Source: Sulfurimonas sediminis (GTDB lineage Bacteria; Campylobacterota; Campylobacteria; Campylobacterales; Sulfurimonadaceae). From it: a DNA stretch of 64,000 bases. Positions within the stretch are counted from its first letter, which is position 1. Every line of letters begins with the position of its first letter. The position numbers and the translations under genes are program-made. The notes beneath the pieces are model-generated. The model was not told where the DNA came from. It worked only from the letters and a program-made list of their open reading frames with translations, and made no database searches. Location: positions 124,001 through 188,000 of the forward strand of contig NZ_CP041235.1 in NCBI RefSeq assembly GCF_014905115.1, read 5' to 3'. Below, piece after piece: positions 19,929 to 48,817 of this stretch.

Positions 19929-20044
19929 CAACAGTCGGCACTGAAGTACCGATTTCGGAAAGTTTTGGAACCCATCCTTTAGGGTGGGCTGAGAATAGTG
20001 AAGAAGTAACAACAGTCGATATGAAAGTACCGGTTTTGTGAACC
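19929..20044. repeat. Dispersed intergenic repeat, copy 1
   Basis: The stretch holds the core GGCACTGAAGTACC (19938 onward) in an imperfect hairpin, TCGGCACT-ga-AGTACCGA. A second hairpin, CCCATCCT-tt-AGGGTGGG, follows near 19971, and a diverged core copy (AGTCGATATGAAAGTACCGG) near 20014. Related units occur at 24825, 40905, 43518 and 48618. It fills the rqcH to acidic-protein gap and resembles REP elements. Confidence 0.75.
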
Positions 20045-24824: not shown

Positions 24825-24962
24825 GTCGGCACTGCAGAAAAAAATTTAGTTTTTTTCTAAGTCATGCTTTAGCATAGAAAGTACCGATTCCAAGGAGTTT
24901 CGGAACCTGTCAATGCTATTAAGTGAAGCATCTTTTTCGGAACCGGTACTTCAGTGCCGGCT
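24825..24962. repeat. Dispersed intergenic repeat, copy 2
   Basis: The unit starts GTCGGCACTGCAG, runs through GAAAAAAATTTAG, CTAAGTCATGCTTTAGCATAG and AAAGTACCGATTCC, and ends GGAACCGGTACTTCAGTGCC. The outer cores are inverted to each other. It is the same family as at 40905, 43518 and 48618, here between the omp and murB 3' ends. Confidence 0.85.
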
Positions 24963-36250: not shown

Positions 36251-37504
36251 ACCACAATCCTCTAAAAACTCAATTTTAATATTTGAGCGATAGAGTCATC
36301 CAAATCCCATCTATTGTTGATGAGTTGTTCTTGTATAGATTTTGCACCATTAAGGTGTAAAATATTCAAAATCATACTTCTAAGAATAGTCATTAAAAAT
36401 GGATTTAAATGACAATTATGAGCATCTTCTAAAAGTGAATTATCTTTGTATTGATGCATGGTTTCCACTTTCCAATGGTGTAAAATTTTATTGTGAAAGA
36501 ATTCTGCACTTTCATGAAAATTTGCAATACAGAATTGAATTCTAGTGCTATTAGTAATCTCGCCAGTTTTATGATTTGTTGACTCTACTTTTTTTATAAC
36601 TTTTATTATTGAGCGAATATGAGTTATGCCATTATGATAAAAAGTAGTTGGTTGATATACAAACACCTTCCTATTAATCCATTCATTAGATTGTTGGACA
36701 GGTTTAGCCTTGTAAATATTTGTCGGTTTTATATCTCTTGAAATTTCATCTATTTTATCAAGTAAGGTTTTTTGATTATCTTTTACCTTGGCAATATATT
36801 TTGAACCACTATTTTCGATAGCATCAAGAGTTTTTTTGGGTATTCATTGCATCAAAAGTAAAGATAAATTCATCTCCCAATTCCCCTATCATAGCCTGAA
36901 GGGCAGGTATTTCATTCGACTTCTCTGCTATTTGTTGATGAGCAATTATTACCCCTATCTCAGATAAAACAGCACCAACTACTTCTATTGATCTCTTATC
37001 TTTGTATTTGCTGCCATTCATAACCTTGCCATCTACGCTCAGGTGCTTTCCTCTTGTATCGACATAGGTTCTTATCCATTTCCTAAAAACAACTTCAACT
37101 TCTTGGCTATCAACTTTCGCTAACACATCAGAAACCAAACTTTTCTTTGGTGTTAATATAAACTCTACACCTAATAATCTTTTAACTTGTTCTTTTTGAA
37201 TATGCTTCTCTATCCAAATAGATATTTGCTTATAGTCAGTTGCTCCCATCAATCCAGCCAATACTGAAAGATATAAAATATGTTCTAGTCGGTGTCTTTT
37301 ACCTTGAGGTTTCCGATAGTCTGTCACCTCTGAAAACAATTTTAAAAGTTGATTTGATTGGGCTTGATCTGCATACCCTCTTATAGAACGCTTTTTCGCT
37401 AATTTTTCTCTTGTTTTTGTTGCCATATGTAATCACTTTAGTTTTTTAGAGTTTAAGCAATTATTGTTCTTCTTTTAAATTCCTGTTTTTTTAGGATTGG
37501 GGTG
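36251..37504 (-). mobile_element. ISAs1-family insertion sequence
   Basis: The element is 1254 bp. The ends are related: ACCACAATCCTCTAAAAAC on the left and, read inward from the right, ACACCCCAATCCTAAAAAA. The 10-bp direct repeat TTATTGCCAC flanks it (36241-36250 and 37505-37514), in the 8-10 bp range of this family. It carries one transposase gene, frameshifted. It inserted between the PAS gene and the SQR-like gene. Confidence 0.85.
36262..37426 (-). pseudogene. ISAs1-family transposase with a frameshift in a poly-A run
   Basis: The N-terminal part (LLKLFSEVTDYRKPQGKRHRL, HLSVDGKVMNGS with the first Asp) ends at a stop just after FTFDAMNTQK. The rest continues in another frame as TLDAIENSGSKYIAKVKDNQK to the C-terminal HHWKVETMHQYKDNS and LNPFLMTILRSM. 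The break is in a run of seven A (about 36833-36839 on the plus strand as T); two more A, or one less, restores the frame and the usual QKKT. Programmed frameshifting is not known for this family, so it is most simply a mutation. Confidence 0.85.
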
Positions 37505-38837: not shown

Positions 38838-39710
38838 TTATTTTTTATTTATAAAGTATACTGCAAACATGCTTATAATTCCGCCAACAATTATATGCAT
38901 CTGCAGAGGCTCATTTAAAATTAACCATGCACTTAAAAGTGCAAAAAAGGGCACTAAAAACATAAAAGAACTTGTTTTTTGACTCCCTATTTTTCCACTG
39001 GCTATAAAGAAAATTGTTGTAGCAACTGTTTGTCCCAATACTGCAAGATAAATAAGTGAAATCCAGAACTTGAGATCTTGTTCAAATACAGCACCAAGGT
39101 TTGCATTGTAGGCATAAATAAAACTAAAAAAAGTAGCGATTACGGAAATAAAAAAACTGTAATGCACCGGATGAATATGCTTTTGTGAATGTTGGGAAAG
39201 AAGTGTGACACCTGCCCAGATAAGAGCACAGAGTAAAAAGTAGATGTTTGAGCTGTGAATAAAGAGGGAAAAATTATTGAGCTGGAGTAAAATATACCCA
39301 CCGACCAGCCCGAGCAAAAGCCCGAAATACTGCCGTGTTGAGAGTCTGCTCTTAAAAATCACAGCAACAAGCAAAAAGGTCATAATAGGGCTGAAGGTTG
39401 TGATAATGACACTGCCCGCACCCGCAAGACCGTATTTTATGCCTAAAAAAGAAAAAACCATGAAGGCTATATTTAAAAAAGAACTGCCGAGGATATATTT
39501 GAATGAGCCCCGTGTCAGTGTCAGTGGAATTTTAAAAAAGTAAAGAATCGGCAAAAAGGCAAGGCTCATCAGAAAAAACCGCCAAAATATGACGACATCC
39601 ATCTCCATTGCAGAGGTGAGAATTTTTAAAGCACTCCATCCGCCGCCCCAAAGCAGCATGGCAAAAATGAGCAGATACGCATAGAGTCTATCGTCGTTTT
39701 TCAAATTCAT
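38838..39710 (-). CDS. EamA/DMT-family transporter
   Basis: The 290-residue protein has ten hydrophobic segments in two EamA repeats (about residues 10-140 and 150-288). Typical blocks are LLWGGGWSALKILTS near the start and PFFALLSAWLILNEPLQ near the end. DMT proteins export metabolites or amino acids; the substrate is unknown. I use the ATG at 39710, inside the last codons of the upstream symporter gene, so translation is probably coupled. Confidence 0.85.
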   Translation of the reverse strand: MNLKNDDRLYAYLLIFAMLLWGGGWSALKILTSAMEMDVVIFWRFFLMSLAFLPILYFFKIPLTLTRGSFKYILGSSFLNIAFMVFSFLGIKYGLAGAGSVIITTFSPIMTFLLVAVIFKSRLSTRQYFGLLLGLVGGYILLQLNNFSLFIHSSNIYFLLCALIWAGVTLLSQHSQKHIHPVHYSFFISVIATFFSFIYAYNANLGAVFEQDLKFWISLIYLAVLGQTVATTIFFIASGKIGSQKTSSFMFLVPFFALLSAWLILNEPLQMHIIVGGIISMFAVYFINKK

Positions 39711-40899
39711 CAACTATTTTTGTGACAATCAAATCGGAGGTGACATTCAGTGAGGTACGACACATATCAAGAATCCTGTCCACGGCAACAATCAAAGCCA
39801 TGTATTCAACAGGCAGTCCAAGCTGGTTGAGTATAATTACCATCATAACAAGTGAGGCACTCGGCAGAGCCGCAACACCGACACTTAGAGAGACAACAGT
39901 AATAGCCAAAAGAATCTGATCCCCCAAGCTCAAAGTGACTCCTGCCAGATTGGCGATATACAATACCGCAACGCTTAAATATGCCGCTGTACCGTCCATA
40001 GAAACCGTAGCCCCCAAAGGCAGGACAAAAGAGGCCGTTTTTTTATCTATACTGCCCATCTCTTCGGTAACACGCATACTCACCGGAAGTGTTGCCGCAG
40101 AAGATGCTGTAGAAAATGCCATAATCGGGGCTTCTCTTACATCTGAGAGATAGCTGTAGGGATTTATTTTTGTAAAAAAACGCAGGACTGCAGGTAAAGT
40201 AACAAGTCCATGAAAAATGATGACACCGATAACAACCAAAACATATTTGTAAAGCCCAAAGATAACATCAATCCCCTGCTCGGCAATAACATAGGAGATG
40301 AGCGAAAAAACACCGACAGGCGTAAGGAGTATCACCCACTCTGCCATTTTCAGCATTGCTTCACTGATGGCTGTAAAGAGGGTGTTTAGTACTTCTTTTT
40401 GTTTTGGAACAAGGTAGAGCGATGCCACGCCAAAAAGAATGGCAAAGACAATGATCTGCATCATTTGGCCCTCTGAGAGGGCATGAAAAATATTGCTGGG
40501 AATAAAACTGAGAATCATATTCTCAAAAGAGAATGGTGCTAAAGTTGTTGCTTTTTCATAAGTAAGCCCGCTACTGCTGACATGCTTGCCGATATGAAAG
40601 ATATCCATTGCGGTTATTGCCGCGGTAACGGCAAGAGCGGTTGTCAAAACATACAAACCGATAGTCTTTAAGCCCATCCGTTTTAAATGTTCAATAGAAC
40701 CAAGTCCAAGAATGGCAACAAATATACTGGCAAAAACAAGAGGCACGACAAGCATCTTCAAAAAATAGACAAAGGCGGTTCCTATCATCTTTTGTTTAAG
40801 CGCCAGTTCTGGAAAAAAGATGCCAAATAACACACCCAGAACAATGCCGAAGATGACAAGGGTGTTTGTTGTTGCATATTTTTTTATTTTTTTGATCAT
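39688..40899 (-). CDS. Dicarboxylate/amino acid:cation symporter (DAACS/GltP type)
   Basis: The 403-residue membrane protein is a glutamate-transporter-fold symporter. Visible are AFSTASSAATLPVSM (hairpin 1 serines), LGATVSMDGTAAYLSVAV (with the MDGT of TM7) and DRILDMCRTSLNVTSDLI (TM8). It takes up dicarboxylates or acidic amino acids with Na+ or H+. I start at the ATG at 40899; the longer frame begins at a TTG inside a repeat. Its upstream 98 bases are a near-perfect inverted copy of those before panE, so both share leader and ribosome-binding sequence. Confidence 0.9.
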   Translation of the reverse strand: MIKKIKKYATTNTLVIFGIVLGVLFGIFFPELALKQKMIGTAFVYFLKMLVVPLVFASIFVAILGLGSIEHLKRMGLKTIGLYVLTTALAVTAAITAMDIFHIGKHVSSSGLTYEKATTLAPFSFENMILSFIPSNIFHALSEGQMMQIIVFAILFGVASLYLVPKQKEVLNTLFTAISEAMLKMAEWVILLTPVGVFSLISYVIAEQGIDVIFGLYKYVLVVIGVIIFHGLVTLPAVLRFFTKINPYSYLSDVREAPIMAFSTASSAATLPVSMRVTEEMGSIDKKTASFVLPLGATVSMDGTAAYLSVAVLYIANLAGVTLSLGDQILLAITVVSLSVGVAALPSASLVMMVIILNQLGLPVEYMALIVAVDRILDMCRTSLNVTSDLIVTKIVDEFEKRR

Positions 40900-40904
40900 T
40901 CTAC

Positions 40905-41051
40905 ATTTCCTCTGTTTCAATTTTTAAGACACCCCGCCCGCACTGCAGAAAAAAATTTAGTTTTTTTCTAAGTCATGCTTTAGCATAGAAAGTACGGGTT
41001 CCAAACAAAAGCATCTTCCATTTTTTTGGAATCGGTACTTTAGTGCCGACT
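40905..41051. repeat. Dispersed repeat copy 3; left half of a 98-bp inverted-repeat pair
   Basis: Bases 40905-41002 are the reverse complement of 43529-43626 with one mismatch in 98. The remainder (to 41051) carries GGAATCGGTACTTTAGTGCC and links to a truncated hairpin unit (CAGCCCGGACTAAAGCAG) that reaches the asnB 3' end. It covers the leader of the symporter gene. Confidence 0.9.
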
Positions 41052-41081
41052 GTTACTGTTTCCTAGCACTCTCAGCCCGGA

Positions 41082-42889
41082 CTAAAGCAGATTTTTCTTT
41101 ATCCAGTAAGATAGTACATAAAGTCCCCATACATGCTGCTTAAAACTCCCCTTTGATGCGGTGTTTATATATTCGTCTAATTTCTTTTTGTGAAACATCC
41201 CTGTTTGCGCATTGACCTCTTGAATGAGGTTGATTTTTTTGGAATGTATCAAATACTCCATATAAGGATTGGAGAAGCCTTTTTTCTTCCGTGTGAGTAT
41301 TGCATCAGGGAGTTTGCCTGTCATGATTTGCTTTAAGAGTGATTTTGTGATGCCGTCTTCATAGCGGAGTTTAGGATCTATGCCAAAAATCAAAGATGTC
41401 AGTTTATGGTCCAAAAACGGGGTGCGGGATTCTATGGAGTGCGCCATGGAAACACGGTCAAGTTTGGTTAAAAAATGCTCCGCTTGAAAAATATTGAGGT
41501 CAATATAGCTGTACCAGATACTTTCATCACTGTGCGCGGAGGTTTCAAAGCGATCTCTGTAGCTTTGCAGGTATTTGAGGCTTTCATTATCTTTGACATT
41601 GCGTCTGAGAAGCTGGTTTTTTTGCAGGTCCGTAAATTTTTCACCGCTTGTACGAAAGAGCAGGGTGTCGTCAAAAATCCGCTTGTACCACTCCCACTCT
41701 CTGTTCATTGAAAAATTGGCACGGAAGTATTTTTTGAGCCAGTTTTTATGCGCCAAACCTGCAGCCTTTTCAATGTCCAGATACTCAAAATACTGTCGGT
41801 AGCCCAAAAAAAGCTCATCCGCACCCTCTCCGCTGAGTACAACTCTGTACCCGTCTTTTTTTATACGCTCAAACAGCAGATACAAAGGCACGGCAGCAGG
41901 ATCATTAAGTGGTTCGTCAAGTGTACCCAGCACCTTGTCGCTTGCACGGATGAAATCATCTTCATCTATTTCCACCTGGATGTTGTCCAAACCCAAAAAC
42001 TCAGCACTTGCTTTGGCATTTTTTCTCTCATCATATTTTGCAAACTCTTTATAACCAAGTGTATATGTTTGTAAATGTGTGTTGTTTTGTTTGGCAAAGT
42101 ATTTGAGTGTGGCAGAGTCTATACCACCAGAAAGGAGTGATGCCATAGGAACATTACACTCTAAACGCAGATGAATGGAGTGTTCTAACGCTTCTTCTAA
42201 CACACGCAAAGCTTCGTGTTTGTTTGTTATCATGTTTGGAGTAACATCAAGCAGGTCAAAGTAGCGTTTAGCGTTTACATGTAACACGCCCCTCTTTACA
42301 TGTAAGGTACTCACCTGCTGAAAGTTTTTCAATACCCTCGTAAAAAGTATTGCGGTGGTGTCGGTGCCAAAAAAGAGAGATAAGAGAGCAGGGCATCATC
42401 GTTGAGTTTACATGTAGATAAAAAAGGCTTGAGCGCTTTGATTTCCGAGGCAAAAACAAAGCTGTCTCCCTGCAGATAAAAAAGTGGTTTTTTCCCGAGT
42501 CTGTCACGAAAAAGGTACAGTGTGTCCCCATCCATTAAAGCAATGGCAAACATACCGCGCAGATGTTGGACAAAATCAACGCCCCATTTCAGATAAGCGG
42601 CGATGATGACTTCACTGTCACTCTCTGTTTCAAAGTCAAAATCAAGCTCTCTTTTTAACGCTTTAAAGTTGTATATCTCTCCGTTGAATGAGAGTAAAAT
42701 ATTGTTATGTTTGCGTGGCTGATGGCTTCTGTGATGGCTGTCAACAATACTGAGGCGCTGATGGGCAAAAAAGAGATTTTTCTTTTGCACAATACCACAG
42801 TAATCAGGTCCACGATGTTTAAGAAGAGACAAGGCGTTTTTTGCCTTGGTCTCATTATATTCGCCGATGATGCCAAAAATCGCACACAT
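41082..42889 (-). pseudogene. asnB: Asparagine synthase (glutamine-hydrolysing), two frameshifts
   Basis: The N-terminal glutaminase domain is clear (catalytic Cys2 in MCAIFGIIG; HRGPDYCG; SFNGEIYNF). The C-terminal synthetase domain is also clear (ASLLSGGIDSATLKYFA pyrophosphatase motif; VVLSGEGADELFLGYRQYF). Between them the frame breaks twice: an extra G in the GGG of CGAGGGTATTG near 42339, and a 7-bp tandem duplication (AAACGCT twice) at about 42264-42277. Undoing both gives a continuous protein through RGIEKLSAGEYLTCKEG and RYFDLLDVTPN. It would make asparagine, or amidate a surface sugar. It overlaps the methyltransferase stop by one base. Confidence 0.85.
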
Positions 42890-43470
42890 TATTTGAAAAA
42901 TCCTACGGTGATGTCATGTTCTATGTAGCCCTCTTCAAATTTTATACGCTTTGCATGTAAACGCTTTGCAAGGGACTCTATGGTCTCAATTGTAATGTAA
43001 TTGTAGGTGTCACTCTTTTTATCGCCATGCAATGCATTGAAAACAAATCCTTTTGTGCAAGAGGCAAAGCAGTTGCGTATAAACAGTTCTGTCTCAAAGG
43101 GAGTAAGAATATTTAAAGCTCCGCTGCAGATGTAGTAGTCAGCCACAGGAAGCCTGGCTTTTGTTATATCGGCACGGATGATTTCACACGCTGTTTTTTC
43201 GCGGGCAATGTCGCACATCTCCTGCAGAGAATCTATGCCGATATATCTGTTTACATGTAGAGCGTTATTTTGTAAAAATCTGTAAAAATCTCCAAAACCG
43301 CAGCCTGCATCGACGATGGCACTCTGTGTAAGATCATCATCAAGCATGGCTGCAATTTTGTCAAATCGTATGCTTTGATGCGCATCAGAGGACCAGTGCA
43401 GACCGCAAGAAGATACCCCATGCTTTTTGAGTGCGGCTTTGTAAAACTTTTCACTGTCGATACGTGGCAT
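42889..43470 (-). CDS. Class I SAM-dependent methyltransferase
   Basis: The 193-residue protein has a Rossmann methyltransferase core: motif I is IVDAGCGFGDFYRFLQ (about residues 52-67), followed by YIGIDSLQEMCDIA (acidic end of strand 2) and YICSGALNILTPFE (motif IV region). The substrate cannot be told. It is co-transcribed with the broken asnB downstream (TAATG overlap), and the pair is enclosed by inverted repeats. Confidence 0.75.
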   Translation of the reverse strand: MPRIDSEKFYKAALKKHGVSSCGLHWSSDAHQSIRFDKIAAMLDDDLTQSAIVDAGCGFGDFYRFLQNNALHVNRYIGIDSLQEMCDIAREKTACEIIRADITKARLPVADYYICSGALNILTPFETELFIRNCFASCTKGFVFNALHGDKKSDTYNYITIETIESLAKRLHAKRIKFEEGYIEHDITVGFFK

Positions 43471-43517
43471 AAGGCTCCTTTTTTACTTTTGCTATTATAT
43501 AATAGTTATGTAAAAAA

Positions 43518-43626
43518 GCCGACATTTCGGAACCCGTACTTTCTATGCTAAAGCATGACTTAGAAAAAAACTAAATTTTTTTCTGCAGTGCGGGCGGAGT
43601 GTCTTAAAAATTGAAACAGAGGAAAT
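43518..43626. repeat. Dispersed repeat copy 4; right half of a 98-bp inverted-repeat pair
   Basis: Bases 43529-43626 match the reverse complement of 40905-41002 in 97 of 98 positions. They include the CTGCAGTGCGGGCGG core, the AAAAATTGAAACAGAGGAAAT leader end and the ribosome-binding site for panE. The pair encloses 2.5 kb with the methyltransferase and asnB. Confidence 0.92.
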
Positions 43627-43630
43627 ATAT

Positions 43631-44497
43631 ATGAAAATTGCGGTAGTAGGCTTAGGGGGTGTCGGGGGATATCTGGCAGCTTCATTTGCAAAAAGTGGTT
43701 TGGATGTTGTAGGTTTTGCAAGAGGAGAACATTTGAATGCTATCCAAAAGTCTGGTATTACAATCAAAGAAGATGACAAAGAGTGGCATACCTCTTTACA
43801 TGTAATGGCTCTTGAAGAAGCAGAGGGGTATTTTGATGTGGTGTTTTTTTGTGTCAAGAGTTATGATTTAGCCGTTACATGTAAAGCCTTTGCAAAGCAT
43901 ACAGACGAAAAGAGCATAATACTTTCTTTTGCAAACGGTGTGAACAATGGCGATATTTTACGACAATGTTGTGATGCCAGAGTCCTGGATGCCTGTGTCT
44001 ATATTCTTGCGCACAGAGAAGCTCCCGGCATAATTCGTAAAAAAGGCAAAGTTTTTGCGGCACTCTTTGGCGGAGAAGATGCATCGACTGTTCAAAGTGT
44101 GGCAGATATATTTCAAAAAGTCGGCCTGCGTTACAAAACACCGCAAAATATCAAAGAGGCCTTGTATAAAAAATATATATTTATCAGTGCATTTGCGACA
44201 TTGACTTCTTATTATAATGAAACGATAGGAGCAATTTATGAAAAGCATTACGAAGAGGCAAAAAAACTTTTAACAGAGATTGCGGAGTTTGCCAAAGAAA
44301 AAGAAGGCATAGATTTGTTTGATGAGGTGCAAAAATCATTAGATACAGCCGCCAAAGTACCCTATGACTCATCTACTTCAATGGCGCTTGATTTTAAAAA
44401 TGCTCATAAAACTGAACTTGAGAGTTTAAGCGGATATGTTCAAAAGCCTTTTATGCAAAAACTTTATAATGAACTAAAAAAGAGAGTAAAAGAATGA
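43631..44497 (+). CDS. Ketopantoate reductase-family protein (PanE/ApbA)
   Basis: The 288-residue protein starts with an NADP-binding KIAVVGLGGVGGYLAASFAKSG and has VVFFCVKSYDLAVTCKAF and LSFANGVNNGDIL, the usual PanE order; the C-terminal helical domain holds KKYIFISAFATLTSYY with the catalytic Lys region. PanE reduces 2-dehydropantoate to pantoate for coenzyme A. Paralogues of other specificity exist. It overlaps msrA by 4 bases, and its leader is the inverted repeat. Confidence 0.85.
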   Translation: MKIAVVGLGGVGGYLAASFAKSGLDVVGFARGEHLNAIQKSGITIKEDDKEWHTSLHVMALEEAEGYFDVVFFCVKSYDLAVTCKAFAKHTDEKSIILSFANGVNNGDILRQCCDARVLDACVYILAHREAPGIIRKKGKVFAALFGGEDASTVQSVADIFQKVGLRYKTPQNIKEALYKKYIFISAFATLTSYYNETIGAIYEKHYEEAKKLLTEIAEFAKEKEGIDLFDEVQKSLDTAAKVPYDSSTSMALDFKNAHKTELESLSGYVQKPFMQKLYNELKKRVKE

Positions 44498-48617: not shown

Positions 48618-48817
48618 CGCCCGCACTGCAGAAAAGAATTTAGTTTTTCTCACAAGTTACGCTTTAGCGTTAAAAGTACGGGTTCCAAACAAAAGCATCT
48701 TCCACTTTCTCGGAATCGGTACTTCAGTGCCGACTGTTACAACTCTCCTGCCACGCTCAGCCCAGACTAAAGTCTGGGTTCCGTAACTTTTTTGGAATCG
48801 GTACTTTAGTGCCGACT
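48618..48817. repeat. Dispersed intergenic repeat, copy 5 (compound)
   Basis: The first part repeats the copy 3 order: CGCCCGCACTGCAGAAAA, AAAAGTACGGGTTCC, AACAAAAGCATCTTCCA and GGAATCGGTACTTCAGTGCC. A perfect hairpin, CCCAGACT-aa-AGTCTGGG (48761-48778), follows, then another GGAATCGGTACTTTAGTGCC. It lies between the 5' end of the phosphoesterase gene and the 3' end of topA. Confidence 0.88.

Follow-up and report, generated by a model that had tools for sequence, protein, structure and literature searches.

Two nearly identical inverted repeats, each lying in front of one of two outward-facing genes, raise the question of whether the segment between them is built to invert or whether the repeats have become alike for another reason. 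The locus is part of a 64,000-nucleotide stretch of Sulfurimonas sediminis DNA (RefSeq contig NZ_CP041235.1; positions 124,001 to 188,000), referred to here as the window. The 98-bp inverted repeats with 97 of 98 positions identical that had been described in an initial annotation were confirmed, with the sole mismatch at 43598 (A) versus 40933, and the pair was recovered as 40902–41005 and 43526–43629 (104 nt, 97% complementary, spacing 2520 nt). As also annotated, the arms take in the leaders and ribosome-binding sites of two genes, a symporter gene of the SDF family, here labelled dctA (ATG at 40899, minus strand), and panE (ATG at 43631, plus strand), and they enclose a methyltransferase gene and an asnB gene broken into two frames (Table 1). 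In relatives, asnB is mostly a single open frame of ~600 aa, and the split may reflect either a recent pseudogene or a sequencing error. We put at roughly 85% the probability that the arms are two long-loop REPs of a RAYT-linked REP/BIME family, the near identity of which arose when panE-side sequence overwrote the dctA side.

Table 1. Positions in the window of the two arms, the genes around them and other members of the repeat family
Feature	Coordinates	Strand	Remarks
Plain REP	19967..19988	+	Stem CCCATCCT/AGGGTGGG
Another long REP of the arm family	24826..24891	-	Stem TCGGTACT/AGTGCCGA
Plain REP	24939..24960	+	
SDF-family symporter (dctA/gltP-like), outside arm 1	39688..40899	-	PF00375; NCBIfam matches under cut-off
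dctA leader and ribosome-binding site	40902..40936	-	Compared with G011, G060 and L143 leaders
Long REP, arm 1 core, asnB-dctA gap	40937..41002	-	Among the 26 genome-wide matches of the long-REP model; foot GGAA, stem CCCGTACT/AGTGCGGG, 46-nt loop of two hairpins
Plain REP hairpin (GGAATCGGTACTTTAGTGCCGA)	41028..41049	+	REP-pair partner of the arm 1 long REP
asnB, two frames (42329-42889 and 41082-42332)	41082..42889	-	One extra base relative to G011
SAM-dependent methyltransferase	42889..43470	-	PF13649
Long REP, arm 2 core, methyltransferase-panE gap	43529..43594	+	L143 and L145 retain long-REP remnants at this site
panE leader and ribosome-binding site	43595..43630	+	Kin to the L143 panE leader; likely conversion donor
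panE-like ketopantoate reductase, outside arm 2	43631..44497	+	TIGR00745 above cut-off; PF02558
Another long REP, older loop version	48620..48686	-	
Plain REP	48712..48733	+	
Plain REP	48794..48815	+	

A 35-nt piece of the repeat has three matches in the window, with none expected by chance, and the third of these (24857–24891) shows that the repeat also occurs outside the inverted pair. The arm region was found to have 59 matches in the 2.32-Mb genome, and the arms therefore belong to a dispersed family rather than forming a locus-specific pair. Two forms were recognised among the copies read. The plain REP consists of a GGAA foot, an 8-bp stem and a two-base loop (e.g. GGAA TCGGTACT TT AGTGCCGA), and the long REP shares the foot and stem of the plain REP, but its loop is 46 nt long and forms two hairpins. 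The GGAA foot is present in nearly all copies, and is also found on other stems in genomes G009 and G050.

The plain REP pattern occurs 157 times in the genome containing the window and 124 times in that of the relative G011. A further 29 genomes of the genus have 0–3 matches apiece, as does a reversed-pattern control in them, and a high copy number is hence confined to two of the 31 genomes searched. The long-REP model has 26 and about 30 matches, respectively, in the same two genomes. In the stretches examined, 47 of 52 REPs are located outside ORFs of at least 100 aa, in DNA that is 82–89% coding. Such high-copy palindromes outside genes, whose hairpins keep the same four bases at the 5' foot, are what is seen in RAYT-linked REPs, and the orientations alternate both in the window and around the candidate RAYT gene described below, forming inverted pairs as in BIMEs and REPINs.

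Folded as DNA, an arm has an energy of -12.8 kcal/mol (z -4.7), and 97.9% of the pair cells in 16 long-REP versions are standard pairs. The stem variants of the plain form differ by paired changes (TCGG/CCGA, CCCG/CGGG, CCGG/CCGG and CCCATCC/GGGTGGG) with one T.G pair kept. Changes on both sides were found at pairs 5-68 (7 sequences), 7-66 (6) and 19-28 (4), and were lost when the partners were slid by 1–3 columns as a control.

A model of the loop only, drawn from seven or more genomes, shows 7 of its 13 pairs changed on both sides, and matches to this loop module were found in 37 of 80 Sulfurimonas genomes. In G050 the module lies inside REPs with other stems (CCTAGGTT, CCCAGGTT and GCAAGGTT), and other occurrences are not enclosed by a GGAA stem. 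It could be suggested, tentatively and with more doubt than confidence, that the 46-nt twin hairpin leads a life of its own, in that it would exchange between or insert into the two-base loops of REPs with different stems and be free of REP stems in other Sulfurimonas, and that it might be either a tiny element living on REP loops or a part recognised in common by RAYT-type enzymes. The occurrences outside GGAA stems are at L226-L270 and in G017, G014, G045, G018, G041, G003 and G010; in G017, G045, G041 and probably G003, the module is at the 3' end of what is apparently the same gene (protein tail ...TDYCCSYI).

A candidate RAYT, a 169-aa Y1/HUH protein, is encoded by a single-copy gene (C1:791253-791762) that has REPs on both sides and occupies the same place in two species. 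The protein matches Y1_Tnp (PF01797) at 44 bits against a cut-off of 23, and its best NCBIfam match is REP_Tyr_transpos (NF047646) at 70.6 bits, below the curated cut-off of 80; a weak IS200 match was also seen. NHIH/NHVH (HUH) and YIKNNP-type catalytic-tyrosine motifs were aligned in five relatives, and comparison with the PDB gave weak matches, the best being to 2f4f (E = 0.004). The orthologue in G011 (88%) is likewise situated among REPs. A relative of the RAYT in G009 (58%) has GGAA hairpins on both sides whose stems are quite different, G019 carries a decayed relative with two long REPs nearby (L141, C6:46600-48609), and in G050 a RAYT fragment (61%) adjoins REPs. Position and co-occurrence thus support a RAYT–REP system, in which the RAYT would be responsible for spreading the REPs. 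Of the flanking hairpins, those in G009 (L109, ~1811-2350) have the unrelated stems CCCCGAAG/CTTCGGGG and TCTGGAAC/GTTCCAGA, and one of the two long REPs at L141 carries a further hairpin within the A/T hairpin of its loop.

The arrangement resembles REP/BIME (REPIN) sequences with their RAYT (TnpAREP), such as the E. coli REPtron, in that a single-copy Y1/HUH transposase gene is surrounded by short palindromes that keep one tetranucleotide at the 5' end, reach high copy number, lie mostly outside genes and are arranged as alternating pairs. However, the canonical REP foot is GT[AG]G, i.e. GTAG or GTGG (PMC6006769, PMC8266576), whereas the foot here is GGAA on an 8-bp stem with an invariant T.G pair, and a quarter-size subset has the 46-nt twin-hairpin loop in place of the canonical 2–5 nt (PMC6006769). 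The GTAG and CGTC REP superfamilies are likewise tagged palindromic repeats outside genes, and the tag GGAA is absent from the text describing them (PMC3733652). Atypical REPs that lack a GT[AG]G foot are associated with TnpAY1 subclasses 2.6 and 3, and subclass 2.6 has a comparable HUH motif, NH[LIV]H, but the Y motif (YIKNNP) and W motif (WA) found here are different, the nearest listed Y motif being the YIxNNP of subclass 2.4 (PMC6006769). A text search of open papers found no description of a GGAA-foot REP family in Sulfurimonas. The new aspects are the GGAA foot in place of GT[AG]G and the covarying twin-hairpin loop module, in a system that is otherwise of a known REP kind.

The near identity of the arms, which runs on for about 35 nt from the REPs into the leaders, had been attributed to recent duplication or gene conversion, and conversion is borne out by comparison of the leaders and flanks with those of relatives. 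Over the short stretch of 17 nt that precedes the ribosome-binding block AAACAGAGGAAAT, the dctA leader in the window matches its own panE leader at 16/17 positions and the panE leader of L143 at 12/17, versus 5, 3 and 3 of 17 for the dctA leaders of G011, G060 and L143, respectively. In the 13-nt block AAACAGAGGAAAT itself, it matches all of the compared leaders at 12–13 of 13 positions. The dctA leader is therefore a mosaic, made up of a panE-type part, GGTGTCTTAAAAATT, attributed to conversion, and a native part, AAACAGAGGAAATGTAGAATG, next to dctA. The outer left flanks follow the site and not the arm, as that of dctA is similar to the G011 dctA flank and that of panE to the L143 panE flank. 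Among the copies read, this loop version combined with the CCCG stem was found only in the two arms, and an older loop version is present at the same place at dctA in G011. At panE, a shortened long REP (GGAACCCATTCTGCAGTGCGGGC) with an adjoining GTGTNTTNAAAAT leader is present in L143 and a long-REP remnant in L145, indicating that the panE-side element is old.

These comparisons suggest that both sites already carried REP-family sequence when the lineage split from its relatives, and that a non-reciprocal conversion between the inverted copies, presumably through RecA-type pairing, transferred the panE-side REP loop and the upstream part of the panE leader to the dctA side. One end of the tract would lie inside the common long REP and the other in AAACAGAGGAAAT, which is present in both leaders, and these putative ends fall within homology that both sites already had. 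A direct copying event would leave a trace much like that of pairing-based conversion. The direction of transfer, which we infer to be from panE to dctA, is the weakest step; it rests on one informative outgroup panE leader, that of L143, as no other relative has a panE leader orthologous to the one in the window.

In the reverse direction, a recent duplicative insertion would have carried the REP together with ~35 nt of dctA leader into the panE gap. This is very unlikely, as L143 already has the GTGTNTTNAAAAT leader beside its shortened long REP at panE, L145 has its remnant there, and the GTGTNTTNAAAAT piece is absent from the dctA leaders of three relatives. The AAACAGAGGAAATGTAGAATG sequence common to the dctA leaders of G011, G060 and the window would fit an insertion, as would the panE of G011, which is without the repeat; however, the G011 gap holds ~2.5 kb of other DNA and is hence uninformative. 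At that locus (L065), the short divergent gap between panE and the methyltransferase gene has been replaced by other genes, with ORFs of 195 and 220 aa. Read from G011 alone, the dctA side had appeared to be the donor, an assignment that was reversed by the panE sites of L143 and L145.

The initial annotation had also proposed that the enclosed segment could invert by homologous recombination without harm to either outer gene. Invertible segments involved in phase variation similarly have inverted repeats around a short segment, and arms that are long, inverted, nearly identical and have apparently exchanged sequence by gene conversion could serve as recombination sites that re-orient the methyltransferase gene and asnB. 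Nevertheless, it is highly unlikely that they do so, as they are two of ~26 long REPs from a dispersed family. Among 80 named relatives, 33 loci including that of G011 hold at least two of the genes, and 21 are informative in having the methyltransferase gene or asnB together with panE or dctA. With one genome per species, the orientation panE<- MT-> asnB-> dctA-> was kept in 21/21 informative loci, as in the window, leaving a dedicated invertible device without support, and whole-genome matches with the genes on one contig also had the same orientation. Nor would inversion be harmless to gene order, as asnB and dctA are head-to-tail and about 17–40 nt apart in REP-free relatives, and a conserved pair would be split. 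No recombinase gene was seen in or beside the segment in the ORF list, in which only the genes named here were classified. A RecA-dependent flip needs no site-specific recombinase. Since the conversion indicates that the arms have exchanged sequence, individual cells or strains may on rare occasions carry the inverted form, although nothing suggests that inversion has been fixed or used.

IS200/IS605 elements with TnpA alone exist. That the hairpins are IS200/IS605 ends or their deletion remnants, and not REPs, is nonetheless very improbable and was rejected on a negative TnpB test, as the Y1/HUH transposase family, the weak IS200 match and a 5' foot, (G)GAAT/C, like the tetranucleotide guide GAAT 5' of the right-end hairpin of IS608 (PMC5934647) are set against a lack of tnpB (no match to the TnpB zinc ribbon, PF07282, in G000, G011, G050 and G060), of any mobile unit seen to be bounded by hairpins, and of more than a single 169-aa copy with a fixed place in two species, and against >150 short paired hairpins outside genes.

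Upstream of the panE long REP is a conserved TATTATATAATA motif that L143 and G014 also have, and the REP is thus probably transcribed as part of the 5' untranslated region of panE, and in the predicted RNA fold the ribosome-binding site is unpaired. Around this REP (window 43518-43603), the stem can be lengthened by pairing of GACATTTC, which precedes the element, with GGAGTGTC, which follows it, a feature that is absent at dctA. In the window, no Rfam match at gathering scores and no tRNA were found; no terminator-like site was detected at arm 1 or arm 2, and a promoter scan gave 9 sites where 7.1 would be expected by chance, no better than the chance level. An identical 200-aa ORF (DDE_Tnp_1_assoc), apparently a cut-short insertion sequence, is located at window 36824-37426 and at G000:C1:797301-797903.

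What appeared to be a genetic switch becomes an ordinary, dated event, and an unrelated gene can have its ribosome-binding region rewritten when inverted REPs undergo conversion. With its unusual GGAA foot, structured loop and candidate enzyme, the Sulfurimonas REP family makes the recognition by RAYTs of REPs without GT[AG]G testable.
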